The notes beneath the pieces are model-generated. The model saw nothing but the letters and a program-made list of their open reading frames with translations. It was not told where the DNA came from and did no database searches. Both the position numbers and the translations under genes were made by a program. Positions 25,205 to 36,288 of a DNA stretch of 49,774 bases are shown here, in pieces. This DNA comes from Arcobacteraceae bacterium (GTDB lineage: Bacteria > Campylobacterota > Campylobacteria > Campylobacterales > Arcobacteraceae). The stretch is taken from assembly GCA_028687375.1 (NCBI GenBank), contig JAQUAG010000017.1, positions 1-49,774 of the forward strand. Reading direction: 5' to 3'. Within the stretch, counting starts at the first letter, position 1, and each line of letters starts with the position of its first letter.

Positions 25205-25216
25205 TTGGAGTTTTTA

Positions 25217-25681
25217 ATGACTTTTGGAGAACTTATATTAGATAGCTTATCAAAAAGAATTGTTGAATATATCGGAAATGACTTACAATTAAATATTCAA
25301 AATGTAACTCATGTAGATATTGTTAAAGAGATACAATTTTCAGATCAAACTGCTTGTATATCAGTTTTTCATCCTAATAATGCCACAATAGCTATCAGTA
25401 CTTCTTTTAGACTTTCAGAACTGATACTTCGGAATTTTATTAATGTAGATATTTTCAATGATGAAATTAACGAATTTGCCCAAGCAAGTTTAGCGGAAAC
25501 ATTAAATATAACTCTGGGTAACATTATACAAGATTTACCAAAAGAGTATGGGGAAGTTACTATTTCACCCCCATTCTTTTTGGAACCGATACAAACTGTT
25601 TTTCAAAAAGATTTTTCTGAAATATATATGTTACAAATTACAATAGAAAATGAAATAATGCTTTTAAGCTATTTTATTTGA
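25217..25681 (+). CDS. cheX: CheX-like CheY-phosphate phosphatase
   Basis: From the ATG at 25217 (GGAG ends 6 bases upstream; an in-frame TTG at 25205 is less likely) the protein has 154 residues. The helix FAQASLAETLNITLGNII contains the ExxN motif (E94-T-L-N97) followed by GN, as in the CheX/CheC/FliY phosphatase family. These proteins insert Glu and Asn into the CheY active site to speed dephosphorylation. No flagellar or receptor domain is attached. The CheY-like gene 20 bases downstream is the obvious substrate. The assignment rests on one motif, fold length and context. Confidence 0.75.
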   Translation: MTFGELILDSLSKRIVEYIGNDLQLNIQNVTHVDIVKEIQFSDQTACISVFHPNNATIAISTSFRLSELILRNFINVDIFNDEINEFAQASLAETLNITLGNIIQDLPKEYGEVTISPPFFLEPIQTVFQKDFSEIYMLQITIENEIMLLSYFI

Positions 25682-25701: not shown

Positions 25702-26070
25702 ATGGCAAAAATATTAGTTGTAGATGATGCAAAAATTATGAGAATGAGTATAAAAAATATGCTTCATGATTTAGGACATAAAGTTATTGGTGAAGCAGAT
25801 AGTGGTTATAGTGCTATAGAAGAGTATAAAAATCTTCATCCAGATATTGTAACTATGGATATTACGATGCCTCAAGTCAATGATATTACAGATGGGATTG
25901 AAGCTGTAAAACAAATTATGGCATATGATAAAAATGCTAAAATTGTGATGATAACTTCACATGGAGAACAAGAAAAAGTTATTAGAGCTATCCAAAGTGG
26001 CGCTTCAAATTATCTTTTGAAACCTTTAAAACTTGATAGATTAAAAGAAGTATTGGACAAACTGCTTTAA
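25702..26070 (+). CDS. CheY-like single-domain response regulator
   Basis: This 122-residue receiver domain has no output domain. The acidic pair is D8/D9, the phospho-acceptor D53 (VTMDITMP), the switch residue T85 (MITSHG) and the invariant Lys107 (YLLKPLK). The loop after the acceptor is longer than usual: MPQVNDITDGIEAV where most CheY proteins have about four fewer residues. It follows cheX with AAAGGAG upstream of the ATG. CheX probably dephosphorylates it; whether its target is the flagellar switch or another protein cannot be read here. Confidence 0.9.
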   Translation: MAKILVVDDAKIMRMSIKNMLHDLGHKVIGEADSGYSAIEEYKNLHPDIVTMDITMPQVNDITDGIEAVKQIMAYDKNAKIVMITSHGEQEKVIRAIQSGASNYLLKPLKLDRLKEVLDKLL

Positions 26071-26187: not shown

Positions 26188-26583
26188 TTGTCAAAAGAAG
26201 TACTACTTGACAAATCAACCATGATTGTTTCAGAAACAGATATGAAAGGAAATATCATTTATGCAAATAATGATTTTTGTAAAATAGCTGGTTATACTAA
26301 AGATGAACTTATTGGAAAACCTCACAATATTGTAAGACATCAAGATATGCCAAAGATTGCATTTAAAGGGTTATGGGATACTATTGGCGAAGGAAAAACT
26401 TGGAATGGTATCGTAAAAAATAAAACAAAAAATGGTGATTACTATTGGGTTAATGCTACTGCTTATGAAGTTTTAAAAAGTGATGGTTCAAGAAGGCTTA
26501 TTTCTGTTAGAAAAATGCCAACAAAAAATGAAATTAGTTATGCTGAAACTCTTTACAAACAACTCAAAAAAGAGGAATACTAA
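26188..26583 (+). CDS. Aer/CetB-like PAS domain protein, probably FAD-binding
   Basis: The 131-residue protein consists almost entirely of one PAS domain. It keeps the residues tied to flavin binding in E. coli Aer at matching places: N28 in IYANNDF, R50, H51 and D53 in NIVRHQDMP, and W72 in [20 protein letters not shown]. It has no membrane segment and no signalling domain. It starts with TTG at 26188, with GGAG ending 6 bases upstream, and shares its final base with the receptor gene (TAATG). It likely senses redox state for the adjacent receptor, as the CetB half of the C. jejuni CetA/CetB pair does. The pairing is inference. Confidence 0.85.
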
Positions 26584-27884
26584 TGTTTTTTTCAAATACA
26601 AATGATACAAATACTATTCTTTTAATGCTTGAACAATTTGAAAGTTATATAAAAGGTGATTTAAATACTCTTGCTTTAACAGCCGAAAATGTAAAAGATA
26701 AAAATCTCAATCTCATCGCTCAAAAAATTGCATCAATAAGTGAAACTATTGCAAAAGGGAAAGAAGCTGATTTAAAAGTTTTTGGTGAAATTATGCTTGT
26801 TTGTGAAAAATTATCGGATGGATATACAGACGATACAATCACACAAAAAACAAGTGATGAAAAACTAAACTACGTTTCATATAGTATAAATGAAGCGGTA
26901 AAAAACATAAATACCTCTTTAAATGCTGTAACAAATATTTTGCATCAATATGAACATAATGACTATAGAAATAAAATAGATGAAAATTTATTTAGAGGTG
27001 GTAAATTCAAAGAGCTTCTAGCAGGAATAAATAATCTTCAAAAAGGAATTACGAACAGAGTATTAGATTCATATAAAATTGGAATGACAATGGAACATCA
27101 ATCAAATATTTTACAAGCAGAAGTGACAAAATTATCCAATTCTACTTCAAATCAAGCGACTGCCGTTGAAGAAACTGCTGCTGCTGTTGAAGAGATTACT
27201 CAAAATATTAATGCAAATACAACTGCAACTATTGCTATGCTTGAATCTAGCCAAATACTAAAAGATTCTGCTACAAAAAGTATGCAATTAACAAACCAAA
27301 CTAAAGATGCAATGGAGAGCATTGATAAATCAACTCAAGCAGTGTATGAGGCAATAACAGTTATCTCTCAAATTGCATTTCAAACAAATATCCTCTCTTT
27401 AAATGCAGCTGTTGAAGCAGCAACTGCTGGAGAAGCAGGAAAAGGATTTGCAGTTGTAGCTCAAGAGGTGCGAAACTTAGCAAATAGAAGTGCAGATGCT
27501 GCAAAAACAATCTCTACTTTAATGGATGAACTTAAAGAGGAAACGACAAAAGGAAAAGCATCTTCATCATCTATGGAAAATGAATTTTCAGTTTTAAATA
27601 CAAACATCACAAACACTTTAAACACCCTTGATAAAATTGCCAATGCTTCCCAAGAACAAAAGAGAAGTATCATGCAAATCAATCAATCAATACAAAACAT
27701 AGATCAAGCGACACAAAATAATGCTTCCTCAACACAAAATGTAAATAATATCGCTATCCAAACATACAATGTAGCAAATACATTAGTTAACTCAAATAAA
27801 GATGTTAATTTTGAAGGGAAAGAAGCTGTAGAGACACCAGATGAAATTATTAAATCTATTTTCACCACTAAAAAAATATACTAG
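26583..27884 (+). CDS. Cytoplasmic methyl-accepting chemotaxis protein without membrane segments
   Basis: The 433-residue receptor has no hydrophobic segment long enough to cross the membrane, so it is cytoplasmic or recruited by a partner. Residues 1-165 are a helical region without a recognised ligand domain; 95-160 has HAMP-like spacing. From about 175 to 400 is the long signalling hairpin, with the tip [20 protein letters not shown] then [20 protein letters not shown] (about 261-300). Thr281 replaces the Arg found at that tip position in E. coli receptors. No CheR-tethering pentapeptide ends the protein (IFTTKKIY). It overlaps the PAS gene by one base, so the two probably work as a split Aer-type receptor. 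Confidence 0.9.
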
Positions 27885-27893
27885 GAGTATGCC

Positions 27894-28253
27894 ATGTACA
27901 AAATAGCAATAATCGATGATGAAACAGAAATTTTAAAGATTTTAGAAAGATTTTTACAAAAAGATTTTCAAGTAAAAACTTTTACAAATCCACTTAATGG
28001 ATATCAAGAGGTTGTTCAAGGTCATTTTGACTTACTTCTTTGTGATATTATGATGCCTCAATTGAATGGATTAGAACTACTCAAAAAACTAAGAGATAAC
28101 AACTGTGATACAAAAGTCATTATGATGACTGCTTTTGATTCACTTGATAAAGCTTTACAAGCTCACACTTACGGAGCTAAAAACTATATTAAAAAACCAT
28201 TTAAAAGCTTAGATTCAATTACAACTCTTATACTTCAAGAGTTACAAAACTAA
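27894..28253 (+). CDS. Single-domain response regulator next to haem-sensor kinase
   Basis: The 119-residue receiver domain has D8/D9/E10 as acidic pocket, D51 as acceptor (LLCDIMMPQLNG), T79 (MMTAFDS) and K101 (IKKPFKS). It contains no DNA-binding or enzymatic part. It is 9 bases after the receptor gene on the same transcript and ends 26 bases from the end of the convergent kinase gene. It could serve either, most simply as the phosphate acceptor of that kinase. Confidence 0.9.
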   Translation: MYKIAIIDDETEILKILERFLQKDFQVKTFTNPLNGYQEVVQGHFDLLLCDIMMPQLNGLELLKKLRDNNCDTKVIMMTAFDSLDKALQAHTYGAKNYIKKPFKSLDSITTLILQELQN

Positions 28254-28279: not shown

Positions 28280-30841
28280 TTATTCTACAAAAGGTAGAGT
28301 AAAGATAAACTCAACACCTATATTTGTTTTACTTTTAATCTCAATCTTACCACCTAAAATATCCACTTCATTTTTCAAAGAAGCAAGTCCTACACCACGC
28401 CCAGAGATGTCTGTTATAACCTCTTTCGTACTAAAGTTATCTTCAAAAATATACATAAGAATATCTTTTTCATTTAATTGATTAAGCTCTACCTCATTGA
28501 GAAGATTTTTTTCCAAAATTTTCCCTTTTATAGCATTTATATCAAGTCCTTTTCCATCATCTTTATAGTTTATTTTTAACAAATTTTTAACAATATAAAC
28601 TTCACAACTAATAGTTCCCTCTACCTCTTTTTCAAAAAGGTATCTCTCCTCCTCGCACTCAATACCATGGTCTAAAGAGTTTCTAAAAATATGAACTAAT
28701 GCATTTAAAAAAGGCTTATAGATATCACTTAAATAGATATCATCACACTCTAAAACAAGTTCTTTCATAGGCTTTTCAAATCTTTTTGAAAGTGTACGAA
28801 TAAGCTGTCCATAAGCATAAAATGTATCCTTAATATTATGGTAAGTTAGTTTTTCAATCTCTTTTTTTATCGCTTCAATATTTTGATATTTATAAATATT
28901 TTTATAAATATTTTCTATCCTACTTTTTTCTATTCTAATACTCGTTGGATGGATAAAAATATTTTGTCTAAAAATTGAATTAATAAGATTCAAATCTGTT
29001 TCAAACCAACTATATAAACTTTTACTAGAAAGATAGATAATATCCTCACTTATCTCCCCTATTTTTAGAGAATAATCAATACTAGATTCAAAAAGATGAA
29101 GTTTTTTAACACTATTAAGTAATTCAAATTGAGCAAATAATCCCTTATACGTATGTATTTCTCTTCTAAGAGTTGGTAACATCTCTAATGTTTTATATTT
29201 TTCTATATTATTTGTAAAATTGATAAAATCATTTTTTACTTCATTAAATTGTTCAAAAAAAGTGATAACAGTTACAACCATCTTGTAAATTTGCTGTTCA
29301 TCTTTTATCTTCTCATTAAGCTGTTTATTTTGAGTGATATCGGTCAAAATTAACATAAAAGTATCTTTTCCAATCACTTTATATTGAACTTTTATAAAAT
29401 TATTTCTTATAGAAAATTCATCTTTTAAAAGTGAAATTAGTATCTCTTGTTTCTCTTTTGTTGTATCTAAAATACCCACCAATGTATCTTGAACAAAAAT
29501 TCTCTCTTCCAAATCTTCAAACAATAAATCTGTAATATATTTTTGTTCAATCGTAACACCAAATATCTCTTGAGCTTTTAAAGAGTATTCTCCTCCTATA
29601 AGCATATTTCTATCAAAATACAGAAACCCTTCATTGGCATTGTCAAATAGAATTTTCAATTTTTTGTGACTTTCTTCTATCTCTTTTCTAATTGTTTCAA
29701 GTTCATCAATATTTGTAAAAACAGAAGTTGTGAATACTTTCCCATCAAATACTATGCTATTTGTAGATACAGTAAATGTGGCTTCATTGTGTTTATTTTG
29801 AAGAACCACTTTATGTATTTTATTTTGGTAATTTTTGACATAAACATCCCAAAAAAATCCATCAACTACTGGAGATATAAAACCTTCCATATCTATTTCT
29901 TTAAATGTAAAAGCTATATCATCACTATATTCTTTGATAAATTGTTTGAGATTATCAACATGGAAAAAATGTAAAAAAGCTTGATTTACATTCAAAAGTT
30001 GTCTATTTTCATCTGTAGTAACAACCAAATCTACTTGAGTATCCATTATATTTTGAGCAAACTTTTCAGCACTTGTTTTAAATTCTAAAGTCAATTTATC
30101 AATATATTCATTAAAAAGTAAGGCAACATCTCCAATTTCATCATTTGTTCTAATTGTTAATTTTACATTATTTGTAAAATTGTTAGAATTCAACAATCTC
30201 TTAAATCCATATTTCAAACCTTCTATAGGTTCTGTTGCTCTTTGAATGATAAATAATAAAACAAAAATTGTTAAAACACCAAAAAATAAAGAGGTGTAGA
30301 TGATATTCCAAATAATCTCTTGGGCATTATTATTGATATCATCTACTGAAAACACAACATCCATAACCGCTATAACATCGCCATTCACTTGATTTGTATG
30401 ACATTTTAAACATTCATCTGTTACAACAATAGGTGTCAATAGTTTGACATAATTTTTATCACCAACTTGCTCTTCCTTGATACTTTCAATTTTTTTGTGA
30501 AAGACCTCCAATATGTTTTTTTCTTTTGTAAATTGTTGATTTGATTTACTAAATTTTAATAATCTTTCACTTTTTATAAGTCGGACATCGATTACATTTT
30601 CAATCGTTTTTGCTTTTTCTAGAATTGTAGAAAGTTCTTTCGTATTCCCCTTAGCCATCTCCATTCTTAATTGAATAAAAATATTATTACTAAAAAGTTC
30701 TAACTGTTGTCTTGTTAGGTCAACATAAGCTTTACTAATTTTTTGACTTGTTGTTATTAAAATCGTTAAACTACTTACAGTAAGCGATATCAACATCCAA
30801 AAAATTATTTTATTTTTTATACTTCCATTTATAAATTTCAT
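28280..30841 (-). CDS. Membrane CheA-like hybrid-architecture histidine kinase with periplasmic CxxCH haem motif
   Basis: This 853-residue protein has a membrane helix at about 12-31 and a periplasmic domain at 32-175 containing CLKCH (144-148), as in DUF3365/Tll0287-type haem sensors. A second helix (178-199) leads to a HAMP-like region (200-255). Two PAS-like regions follow (about 262-380 and 392-505). An Hpt-type helix carries His563 in RREIHTYKGLFAQFEL. The C-terminal ATPase is of CheA type: N-box HIFRNSLDHGIE (717-728), DDGKGLD (761-767), and FSTKEVITDISGRGVGL. There is no P5/CheW-like domain and no receiver. It should therefore autophosphorylate His563 from its own ATPase and pass phosphate to a separate regulator. 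It starts with AAAGAAAG upstream, divergent from dnaX. Confidence 0.85.
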   Translation of the reverse strand: MKFINGSIKNKIIFWMLISLTVSSLTILITTSQKISKAYVDLTRQQLELFSNNIFIQLRMEMAKGNTKELSTILEKAKTIENVIDVRLIKSERLLKFSKSNQQFTKEKNILEVFHKKIESIKEEQVGDKNYVKLLTPIVVTDECLKCHTNQVNGDVIAVMDVVFSVDDINNNAQEIIWNIIYTSLFFGVLTIFVLLFIIQRATEPIEGLKYGFKRLLNSNNFTNNVKLTIRTNDEIGDVALLFNEYIDKLTLEFKTSAEKFAQNIMDTQVDLVVTTDENRQLLNVNQAFLHFFHVDNLKQFIKEYSDDIAFTFKEIDMEGFISPVVDGFFWDVYVKNYQNKIHKVVLQNKHNEATFTVSTNSIVFDGKVFTTSVFTNIDELETIRKEIEESHKKLKILFDNANEGFLYFDRNMLIGGEYSLKAQEIFGVTIEQKYITDLLFEDLEERIFVQDTLVGILDTTKEKQEILISLLKDEFSIRNNFIKVQYKVIGKDTFMLILTDITQNKQLNEKIKDEQQIYKMVVTVITFFEQFNEVKNDFINFTNNIEKYKTLEMLPTLRREIHTYKGLFAQFELLNSVKKLHLFESSIDYSLKIGEISEDIIYLSSKSLYSWFETDLNLINSIFRQNIFIHPTSIRIEKSRIENIYKNIYKYQNIEAIKKEIEKLTYHNIKDTFYAYGQLIRTLSKRFEKPMKELVLECDDIYLSDIYKPFLNALVHIFRNSLDHGIECEEERYLFEKEVEGTISCEVYIVKNLLKINYKDDGKGLDINAIKGKILEKNLLNEVELNQLNEKDILMYIFEDNFSTKEVITDISGRGVGLASLKNEVDILGGKIEIKSKTNIGVEFIFTLPFVE

Positions 30842-33558: not shown

Positions 33559-36288
33559 TTATAATTTTATAACTGAAAGGTCTCTTTTTCTATAAGCAAG
33601 TGCAATTACAGCAAATACTGTAGCCGTTACATAATAAACCCACATAGGAATCGGCACTGGGTCACCAGTTGCATAAGAGTGCATTCCACTTAAGTAAAAG
33701 TTAACTCCAAAATAAGTCATCAAAATTGTACTAAATGCTAAAGCTGAAGCAACTGCTAAAACATAAGGACGATTCAGTTTTGGGATAAGTCTTAAGTGTA
33801 AAACTATCACATACACAACAATTGCTACATAAGCCCAAGTCTCTTTTGGATCCCATCCCCAGTATCTTCCCCAAGATTCATTTGCCCAAACACCACCTAA
33901 AAAGTTTCCAACAACAAGTGCAGAAAGCCCTATGATAAGAGCAGCTTCATTGATAGCTGTGATGTGTTTAATTGTTTTATCAATATGTGGTTTATTCTCA
34001 TTTCTAAAGTTAAATAAAATCAACGCCATAAATCCAAGCATCGCTCCAAGTGCTAAAAATCCATATGAACCTGTAATAATAGATACATGGATAGTTAACC
34101 AATACGATTTTAGCACAGGGACTAGATTTGTAATTTGTGGATCAATTCCACTTAAATGGGCTGTAAACATAAAAACTGCAGCCATAACAACAGTTGCACT
34201 TAAAGCCATAAGTGATTGTCTAAAGAATACAACACCGGCAAACATAATACTCCATGCAATATAAACAAGTGATTCATAAGTATTACTCCACGGAGCATGC
34301 CCACTAATATACCATCTAAATCCCATTCCCACAGTTTGGATAATAAATAAAATAGCTAGCAATCCAAAAAGAATATTATTTACTTTGTTCGATGAAAGTG
34401 ATTGTTTAAAGACTGTCGCAAATGCTATTATAAACATTACAATACCTACAAGAAGATAAGCCAAAGTAAGTCTTGGAAAAATATCAAGTTTATTAAACAT
34501 CAACTCTGCATCAATTTTAGCACTACTTGGATAGATATCTTTTCCAAATTTTTGTTGATACATCGAGATAAGTTCTAAACTTTTAGAAGCATTTGTATAG
34601 TTTCCATCACTAACTCCTGCTATAAAATTAGATGTTATAAAATAGATAACCTCTTTATCTTTCCCCTCTAGAGTATTAATTGCTGTATTTGGACTTATCC
34701 ATTGATTATTTATATCACCAATTTTAGGATAAATTTTGAACATATCACTCAAAAATATCATATACATAATATTTACTCTCTCATCAACCCTAAGAGCATC
34801 TTTTTCAAAAGTTCCTCTTTGATTTGGGTCTATTTTATTTACATCTTCTAAAAGCTGAGCTAGTTTATAACCATCTTGAGTAAGAATTTCACTAAATGCT
34901 ACATATTTTCTATCATTTGGCACACCCAAAAACTCTCTCATTTTTGGAGTATCAACTTTGATAATCTTGATATCTTTCCAAACATTTGGATTTGTTAACA
35001 TCCCTAAAACTACTTGATTTGGATTCATTCCTAAAAATTCACTTTGTCTTGAGAGTTTATTTAAAATCTCTCGTGAAAGTGTATCCATAGGTTTCATTCT
35101 ACCCATATCAGCTTGTACTATTAGGTGCGAAAATTGCTCTGCAACAGCTTTACTATCCTCTTTGTATTTTTCAAGATATGACACTGTATCATTTAGATTT
35201 ACAGGTGCTTGTATCTCTGCTTTTAAAGAAGTTGTACCAAAAAGAAAAAGTGCCACAACAAAGAAAACTGCTGTTTGATTTGCTTTTGCTATATATCTTG
35301 TCAGTTTTGCAAATCTTGAGTCTTTATCAAAAAAGTTCATAACAAGTCCTACAAGAAGCATAAAATACCCTAAATATGTTGGCCAATGCCCAATATCTTT
35401 ATTTACAGAGAGTACTGTTCCCATCTCATCAGGGTCATACGAACTTTGGAAAAATTTAAATCCATCATAATATAAAATATGATTCATATAAATATGGAAA
35501 GGAAATTGTACATTAGCGGCTTTATCAATCAATTCAACTTTACTTGAATACGATGATGGCGCCATACTTCCAGGATATCTTTCAAGCTCAAAATCGTTAA
35601 GTTTTATAGCAAAAGGAAGTTCAAGTGGTTTTGAACCATATTCTAAAGAGACTTTTGTTCCATCTTTAAATACAATATCTTTAACAACTCCAGTTCTCAT
35701 ACCTCTTTGTCCTACAAGTCTTGTTTGTTGAGTTTCCCCTTTATATTTAGCTTCAACAGTCAAAAGACCCATTTTGCTCATACCTTTTTTTGCAAGTTGA
35801 TAATCAACATAATTCACCTCTATATTTGTTCCATTTACAGGTACTTTGTATGCAAAACCACTATTTCCAAAAGCTGCAAAATCTTTTTCAAAATAAGAAG
35901 TTTCACTTTTCCCCTCTTTATAAGTAGTAATATGTACATATGGTTCAAGTGAAATCATCTGATTTGTTGTTTCACCCTCTCTAATATTCATTATCCCCTC
36001 ATAACCATAATATCTAGTAAGTGCTGCACCAATCAACATCACAACAAAAGAACTATGAAAAATAAATTTTGCTTTACTTTTCATCATCTTCACTTTAGCC
36101 ATAATCCCAATAAGATTAAAAATAGTCAAAGTAAGCACAAGTTCATACCAAAAATTGTTATACACAAAAATTCTAGCTGTTGAACTTCCAAAATCATTCT
36201 CTATAAATGTAGCAACACCTGCTCCAATAGCGAGTAATGATAATAAAAATATTGTCATCCAATATGAAAAAAATAGTTTTTGAAACAT
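33559..36288 (-). CDS. ccsBA: Fused CcsBA (ResB-ResC) cytochrome c haem-export and attachment protein
   Basis: This protein exports haem and ligates it to CxxCH motifs of periplasmic c-type cytochromes (System II). The 909-residue polypeptide joins a ResB/CcsB half (helices near 13-30, 45-62, 75-90 and a large periplasmic part) to a CcsA half from about 610. The haem-handling WWD segment is ESWGRYWGWDPKETWAY (motif at 810-820), and flanking His residues occur in several helices. The fused form is the norm in Campylobacterota. A TATAAT promoter sits 37-42 bases upstream. Probable clients include respiratory cytochromes and perhaps the CLKCH sensor kinase of this window. Confidence 0.95.
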   Translation of the reverse strand: MFQKLFFSYWMTIFLLSLLAIGAGVATFIENDFGSSTARIFVYNNFWYELVLTLTIFNLIGIMAKVKMMKSKAKFIFHSSFVVMLIGAALTRYYGYEGIMNIREGETTNQMISLEPYVHITTYKEGKSETSYFEKDFAAFGNSGFAYKVPVNGTNIEVNYVDYQLAKKGMSKMGLLTVEAKYKGETQQTRLVGQRGMRTGVVKDIVFKDGTKVSLEYGSKPLELPFAIKLNDFELERYPGSMAPSSYSSKVELIDKAANVQFPFHIYMNHILYYDGFKFFQSSYDPDEMGTVLSVNKDIGHWPTYLGYFMLLVGLVMNFFDKDSRFAKLTRYIAKANQTAVFFVVALFLFGTTSLKAEIQAPVNLNDTVSYLEKYKEDSKAVAEQFSHLIVQADMGRMKPMDTLSREILNKLSRQSEFLGMNPNQVVLGMLTNPNVWKDIKIIKVDTPKMREFLGVPNDRKYVAFSEILTQDGYKLAQLLEDVNKIDPNQRGTFEKDALRVDERVNIMYMIFLSDMFKIYPKIGDINNQWISPNTAINTLEGKDKEVIYFITSNFIAGVSDGNYTNASKSLELISMYQQKFGKDIYPSSAKIDAELMFNKLDIFPRLTLAYLLVGIVMFIIAFATVFKQSLSSNKVNNILFGLLAILFIIQTVGMGFRWYISGHAPWSNTYESLVYIAWSIMFAGVVFFRQSLMALSATVVMAAVFMFTAHLSGIDPQITNLVPVLKSYWLTIHVSIITGSYGFLALGAMLGFMALILFNFRNENKPHIDKTIKHITAINEAALIIGLSALVVGNFLGGVWANESWGRYWGWDPKETWAYVAIVVYVIVLHLRLIPKLNRPYVLAVASALAFSTILMTYFGVNFYLSGMHSYATGDPVPIPMWVYYVTATVFAVIALAYRKRDLSVIKL

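Follow-up and report, generated by a model that had tools for sequence, protein, structure and literature searches.

The analyzed window is the whole 49,774-nucleotide stretch of contig JAQUAG010000017.1 from an Arcobacteraceae bacterium. Its minus strand carries an open reading frame, beginning with ATG in the ORF listing, for a predicted membrane kinase in which a periplasmic sensor, HAMP-like and PAS regions and a CheA-type core follow one another, and its plus strand carries a CheX-like and a CheY-like gene (Table 1). In the kinase, the two hydrophobic segments found by hydropathy flank the CLKCH region. The HAMP profile, which is below cut-off in this protein, scored 16.4-27.1 bits at the equivalent site of three related receptors, and the PAS profile matched the segment at the start of the core weakly and in a few of the 25 aligned cores. 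A full-length AlphaFold2 model built from a two-row alignment had a pLDDT of 35 and gave no usable domain packing. The motifs of the protein are not due to chance, since the residues in question do not vary among 13 sensor relatives and 25 kinase-core relatives.

Table 1. Predicted features of the kinase gene and of its candidate partner genes, with positions in the window
Feature	Positions	Strand	Basis
Whole kinase gene	28280..30841	-	853 aa; sCache_heme - TM - HAMP-like - PAS - PAS-like - CheA-type P1-P3-P4; ORF, domain scans and a second genome with a full-length relative at 65% identity
First membrane helix, ~residues 11-32	30746..30811	-	19-residue windows that begin at 11-14 exceed a hydropathy of 1.6
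Periplasmic sensor, residues 33-174, Tll0287-like / sCache_heme	30320..30745	-	PF11845; homology to heme-type chemoreceptors
CLKCH covalent heme motif (predicted), residues 144-148	30398..30412	-	CxxCH invariant in 13/13 aligned relatives
Second membrane helix, ~residues 175-204	30230..30319	-	Hydropathy up to 2.6
HAMP-like linker, residues 197-250	30092..30253	-	PF00672 13.8 bits, below the cut-off of 25
PAS domain, residues 263-380	29702..30055	-	PF13188 (PAS_8) over cut-off for 263-309; remainder by extent only
PAS-like segment at start of kinase core, residues 392-505	29327..29668	-	Conservation across the 25 aligned cores
CheA P1-type Hpt domain, residues 530-627	28961..29254	-	Profile match to 1tqg; PF01627 in 15/25 members; helical-bundle model
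His563, predicted phosphoacceptor	29153..29155	-	Invariant in 25 cores; aligned on T. maritima CheA His45
P3-like dimerization hairpin, shortened, residues 635-690	28772..28939	-	T. maritima CheA P3-P4 profile alignment starts in P3
CheA-type ATP-binding P4 domain, residues 691-851	28289..28771	-	PF02518 E 6.5e-11; 1i58/1i5d E 2e-27
CheX-like phosphatase gene, predicted partner	25205..25681	+	PF13690 29.3 bits against a cut-off of 27; ETLN (ExxN) at 98-101
CheY-like single-domain regulator, Asp53, predicted phosphate receiver	25702..26070	+	Orthologues in G001, G092 and G004; mirror-tree r 0.84

Three further genes lie between the CheY-like gene and the kinase. Positions 26188-27884 encode a 131-aa stand-alone PAS protein and then a 433-aa MCP without membrane segments, a pair that looks like a split Aer-type receptor and that we take to be reminiscent of CetB/CetA of Campylobacter. 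They precede a single-domain regulator (27894-28253) whose relatives occur in conserved operons of the bacterial family with the order CZB-MCP, response regulator, membrane kinase (L071-L080); the kinase gene of that operon is missing here.

Sensor half and kinase core

The sensor gave a borderline match to the Tll0287-like profile PF11845, scoring 24.0 bits in the protein scan and 26.7 in a six-frame genome scan against a cut-off of 24.1. The CxxCH motif by which sCache_heme domains are recognized is present as CLKCH on the periplasmic side, between the membrane helices, and its cysteines are the sole ones within the first 260 residues in all 13 aligned sensor relatives. These results are in line with the sequence-only reading, made earlier from the letters and ORF translations, which had placed a sensor of the covalent-heme type at CLKCH. 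Matches of the sensor profile to the heme-sensor structures 3b42 and 3b47 in the PDB were weak (3b42, E 0.5).

Across the bacterial family, residues 1-257 have relatives of 30-40% identity, ~733 aa long and numbering about one in each genome. Those examined are chemoreceptors rather than kinases, with the order Tll0287-like, HAMP, MCPsignal, and one scanned 733-aa relative additionally carries a CZB domain. The sensor half of the kinase resembles a near-universal heme chemoreceptor. Transfer of the sensor from the adjoining soluble MCP (26583) to the kinase was considered and rejected, since the heme receptors are not closer relatives of this MCP than the genome's other MCPs are. In another genome (G019), a heme sensor sits on an orthodox kinase, a 1179-aa hybrid with the order sCache_heme, GAF, HisKA, HATPase and three receivers (L117:2447-5986).

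DUF3365/Tll0287 has been described in a 2026 preprint as a Cache domain with covalently bound heme c, with CxxCH in 99% of members (PMC12889525). The window also encodes, at 33559-36288, a fused CcsBA-type cytochrome c synthase (ResB + Cytochrom_C_asm), which makes it probable that this cell is able to produce c-type heme proteins. Between this gene and the heme kinase are dnaX and two small membrane genes.

The C-terminal part of the kinase, residues 376-853, is a module common to 25 aligned proteins. It contains REIHTYKG at 560-567, with His563, the N-box HIFRNSLDHGIE from 717, DDGKG at 761 and SGRGVG at 813; H563, K566, G567, F569, Q571, H582 and E585 are invariant in the 25 cores, as are the P4 motifs. 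A family profile of the segment around His563 matched the P1 domain of Thermotoga maritima CheA (1tqg) with E 2.1e-7, aligning H563, K566, H582 and E585 on H45, K48, H64 and E67. In CheA, Glu67 contacts the phosphoacceptor His45 (PMC3904827). The Pfam Hpt profile (PF01627) found P1 in 15 of the 25 members and had no match in the window kinase itself, where P1 was detected via the family profile only; a CheX domain was found in four members. The proposal that His563 is an Hpt-type phosphoacceptor is supported by these alignments and by an AlphaFold model computed for residues 499-646 from the single sequence, which forms a helical bundle (pLDDT 81, one confident model of five). The natural Foldseek matches of this fragment were for the most part Hpt proteins, CheA P1 included. 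Because their best E was 0.2, and because a VIA Z of ~9 is within helical-bundle noise, with unrelated receptors scoring equally high, the likeness of the model to CheA P1 is only supportive.

The ATP-binding domain matched HATPase_c and the P4 structures of T. maritima CheA (Table 1), and the core profile as a whole matched T. maritima P3-P4 with E 6e-54, P3 being shortened and aligned by profile only. Of the three domains named in the sequence-only reading, HATPase was found outright, DUF3365 was found at a borderline score, and Hpt was missed by Pfam in the window protein but recovered in 15 of 25 relatives. No CheW/P5 domain was found by Pfam in the kinase, and none is among the families listed for the 25 core members. 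The chain ends two residues after HATPase_c, which leaves no room for CheW and bears out the absence of P5 noted earlier. No HisKA-type Pfam match was found in the kinase, which sets it apart from orthodox sensor kinases defined by HisKA/DHp.

Set against CheA, the protein has the P1 His/Lys/His/Glu positions and P3-P4, lacks CheW/P5 and, unlike CheA, carries its own sensor and membrane segments. It looks like a chemoreceptor sensor grafted on a CheA core, and it appears CheA-like in its phosphotransfer chemistry, yet it falls outside the published definition of a CheA, in which CheW is required (PMC10542144). In the survey by Berry et al. (2023, PMC10542144), CheW was present in 100% of CheAs and H-kinase_dim always occurred with CheW, although its sampling may have favored CheW to some extent, at least for archaea, which were searched with CheW as the query. 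Besides two ordinary CheAs that carry CheW, the genome studied here encodes two other CheW-less cores.

A family of CheW-less cores and the candidate partners

Around 40 CheW-less CheA-type cores with varied inputs were found in Campylobacterales relatives, and the absence of CheW is a trait of the whole kinase family, not of the window protein alone. Full cores (E <1e-60) occurred in 28 places, in 19 of the 299 sampled genomes of the order and 16 of 81 genera. Their inputs are NMT1/THI5, dCache_3, receiver-PAS or none. The fusion of a core to a heme sensor is rare, with full-length relatives in two of 104 family genomes, namely the window's own and G001, which belongs to the same genus (65% identity); a scan of genome contigs for the kinase gave one relative. 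We found no description of CheA-type kinases without CheW in the literature searched, which is weak evidence of novelty because the search was limited to open-access papers.

Several individual loci deserve mention. Three CheW-less CheA-type kinase genes and three CheY-like genes lie within <10 kb in one genome (L030, G043), a local expansion. In G004, an in-frame stop breaks one CheW-less core whose neighboring CheX and CheY genes are intact (L032:1375-2430). One public MAG record (L021) is labelled Helicobacter pylori PMSS1 and yet matches a 2.7 Mb genome in the window's genus, so that the label looks wrong.

At ~30 of the ~40 distinct core loci, a CheX-like and/or CheY-like gene lies directly downstream or CheX is fused to the kinase C-terminus, and several of the loci without such a neighbor are at contig ends. 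Together with the membrane segments and periplasmic domain, this agrees with the earlier proposal of a built-in sensor whose likely output is a separate receiver protein. That reading had mentioned neither the CheX gene at 25205 nor the existence of the CheW-less core as a multi-member family.

Relatives of CheX 25205 adjoin a kinase core or are fused to one, and its orthologue in G001 follows aroC; the order aroC-cheX-cheY occupies the same site in G001 and in the window. After that of G001, the nearest cores come from G092, where a soluble kinase of 533 aa precedes CheX and CheY, from G004, where a 684-aa fusion of kinase and CheX precedes CheY, and from G108, where a contig end interrupts the sequence of 526 aa. 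CheY 25702 is 87-88% identical to its G001 orthologue and 69% identical to the operon CheYs of G092 and G004, and close orthologues occur in only six of 104 genomes. The kinase gene, which adjoins dnaX in both the window and G001, and the CheX-CheY pair are 2.2 kb apart and convergent and therefore do not form one operon; in G001 they are at separate loci. The kinase half resembles the soluble kinase-CheX-CheY operons. In a mirror-tree analysis of 25 kinase-CheY pairs, the distance matrices correlated with r 0.68 and a permutation p of ~2e-4, a value that is optimistic because the distances were not corrected for species relatedness. The row of the window kinase correlated with CheY 25702 at r 0.84 and with the regulator at 27894 at r 0.29. 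On the basis of operon conservation, CheX fusion, the aroC-cheX-cheY locus of G001 and the mirror-tree, CheY 25702 and CheX 25205 are the likely partners of the kinase.

The regulator at 27894, which had also been put forward as a partner, is the immediate convergent neighbor of the kinase gene, ~26 bp away, and relatives of it adjoin heme chemoreceptors in four loci. We nevertheless consider it improbable that the kinase signals mainly to this regulator, in a unit with the preceding PAS protein and soluble MCP. Its low correlation argues against such a pairing, its best relatives are mostly in the CZB-MCP operons described above, and the PAS-MCP-RR block after cheY is absent from G001, which has the same fusion; this candidate is accordingly disfavored. 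Even less probable is that the kinase works within a chemoreceptor array, recruited by a separate CheW or by its own HAMP/PAS helices, and tunes ordinary chemotaxis. The genome encodes free CheW-type proteins and many MCPs, and a soluble MCP gene adjoins the locus, but the kinase lacks the P5 domain for array docking, and relatives of its core have unrelated inputs (NMT1/THI5, dCache), as expected for stand-alone sensor kinases.

A further question is what the sensor perceives. Many c-type heme proteins are redox carriers, and the c-type heme motif of the kinase sits in the periplasm, where the respiratory chain or a periplasmic electron carrier might reduce or oxidize the heme iron; that the protein is such a redox sensor and not a gas sensor is nevertheless rather unlikely, as its sensor is joined to TM-HAMP and lacks a third Cys. 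A stand-alone sCache_heme member behaves like a redox protein, and redox-type behavior has been ascribed to stand-alone domains with an axial Cys, whereas a signaling-type member, with TM helices and HAMP and without the axial Cys, released NO slowly and formed no stable O2 complex, these signaling-type measurements coming from a single protein (PMC12889525). By analogy with that member, whose architecture the kinase sensor shares, NO is probably the ligand in preference to O2, with redox state or CO, both named in the sequence-only reading, as less probable alternatives.

Proposed signaling route and comparison with known systems

Taken as a whole, the protein is probably a membrane receptor-kinase that combines a heme-c chemoreceptor's sensory half (sCache_heme, two TM helices and HAMP) through PAS with a CheA-type P1, short P3 and P4, lacks CheW/P5 and signals to CheY 25702, with CheX 25205 resetting the pathway. 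A heme attached covalently to CLKCH on the periplasmic side would change state on meeting its ligand, NO most likely and redox second, and this change would reach the P3-P4 dimer by way of TM2 and the helices of HAMP and PAS. As the conserved residues suggest, P4 would phosphorylate His563 on P1; gene linkage and coevolution point to transfer of the phosphoryl group from His563 to Asp53 of CheY 25702, which CheX 25205 would reset. One protein would thereby replace the receptor array, CheW and CheA, while the phosphorylation chemistry of CheA, CheY and CheX would be kept.

What defines CheA is that it depends on CheW and on receptor arrays. More tentatively, the kinase may belong to a self-contained class of CheA kinases in Campylobacterales, array-free and CheW-free, in which sensor domains act directly on P1-P3-P4 and CheX-CheY are dedicated partners, this member being a periplasmic NO sensor derived from a grafted chemoreceptor half. 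A natural CheA-core family without CheW or arrays, with direct and diverse sensors and with CheX-CheY, would reveal which components of chemotaxis signaling can be separated, and the CheW-less kinase would offer a minimal system for asking whether sensor-HAMP-PAS input controls CheA P4 without an array. The heme kinase would also extend by one class the outputs described in the preprint on sCache_heme, which mentions neither CheA nor Hpt (PMC12889525).

Compared with T. maritima CheA (P1-P5), the window kinase shares the P1 His/Lys/His/Glu positions, the P3-P4 kinase and CheY-like and CheX-like partners, but it has no P5/CheW and no detectable P2, and it adds two TM helices, PAS and a periplasmic sensor of its own. 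With the sCache_heme (DUF3365/Tll0287) chemoreceptors, such as the ~733-aa HAMP-MCP proteins and Geobacter GSU0582/GSU0935, it has in common the sensor, the membrane anchor, HAMP and the invariant CxxCH; their output is an MCP signaling hairpin, whereas the kinase has a CheA core in that place. The sCache_heme HisKA kinases (PMC12889525; L117, 1179 aa) likewise fuse a heme sensor to a kinase, but their phosphoacceptor is of the HisKA type, in contrast to the CheA type here with the acceptor on a separate P1 domain. While the examined inputs of the CheW-less kinase-CheX-CheY modules of Campylobacterales (L022, L026, L035/L040) are NMT1/THI5, dCache, receiver-PAS or none, and not heme, these modules share with the window kinase a homologous core and homologous partners, at 27-46% identity (66% in G001).
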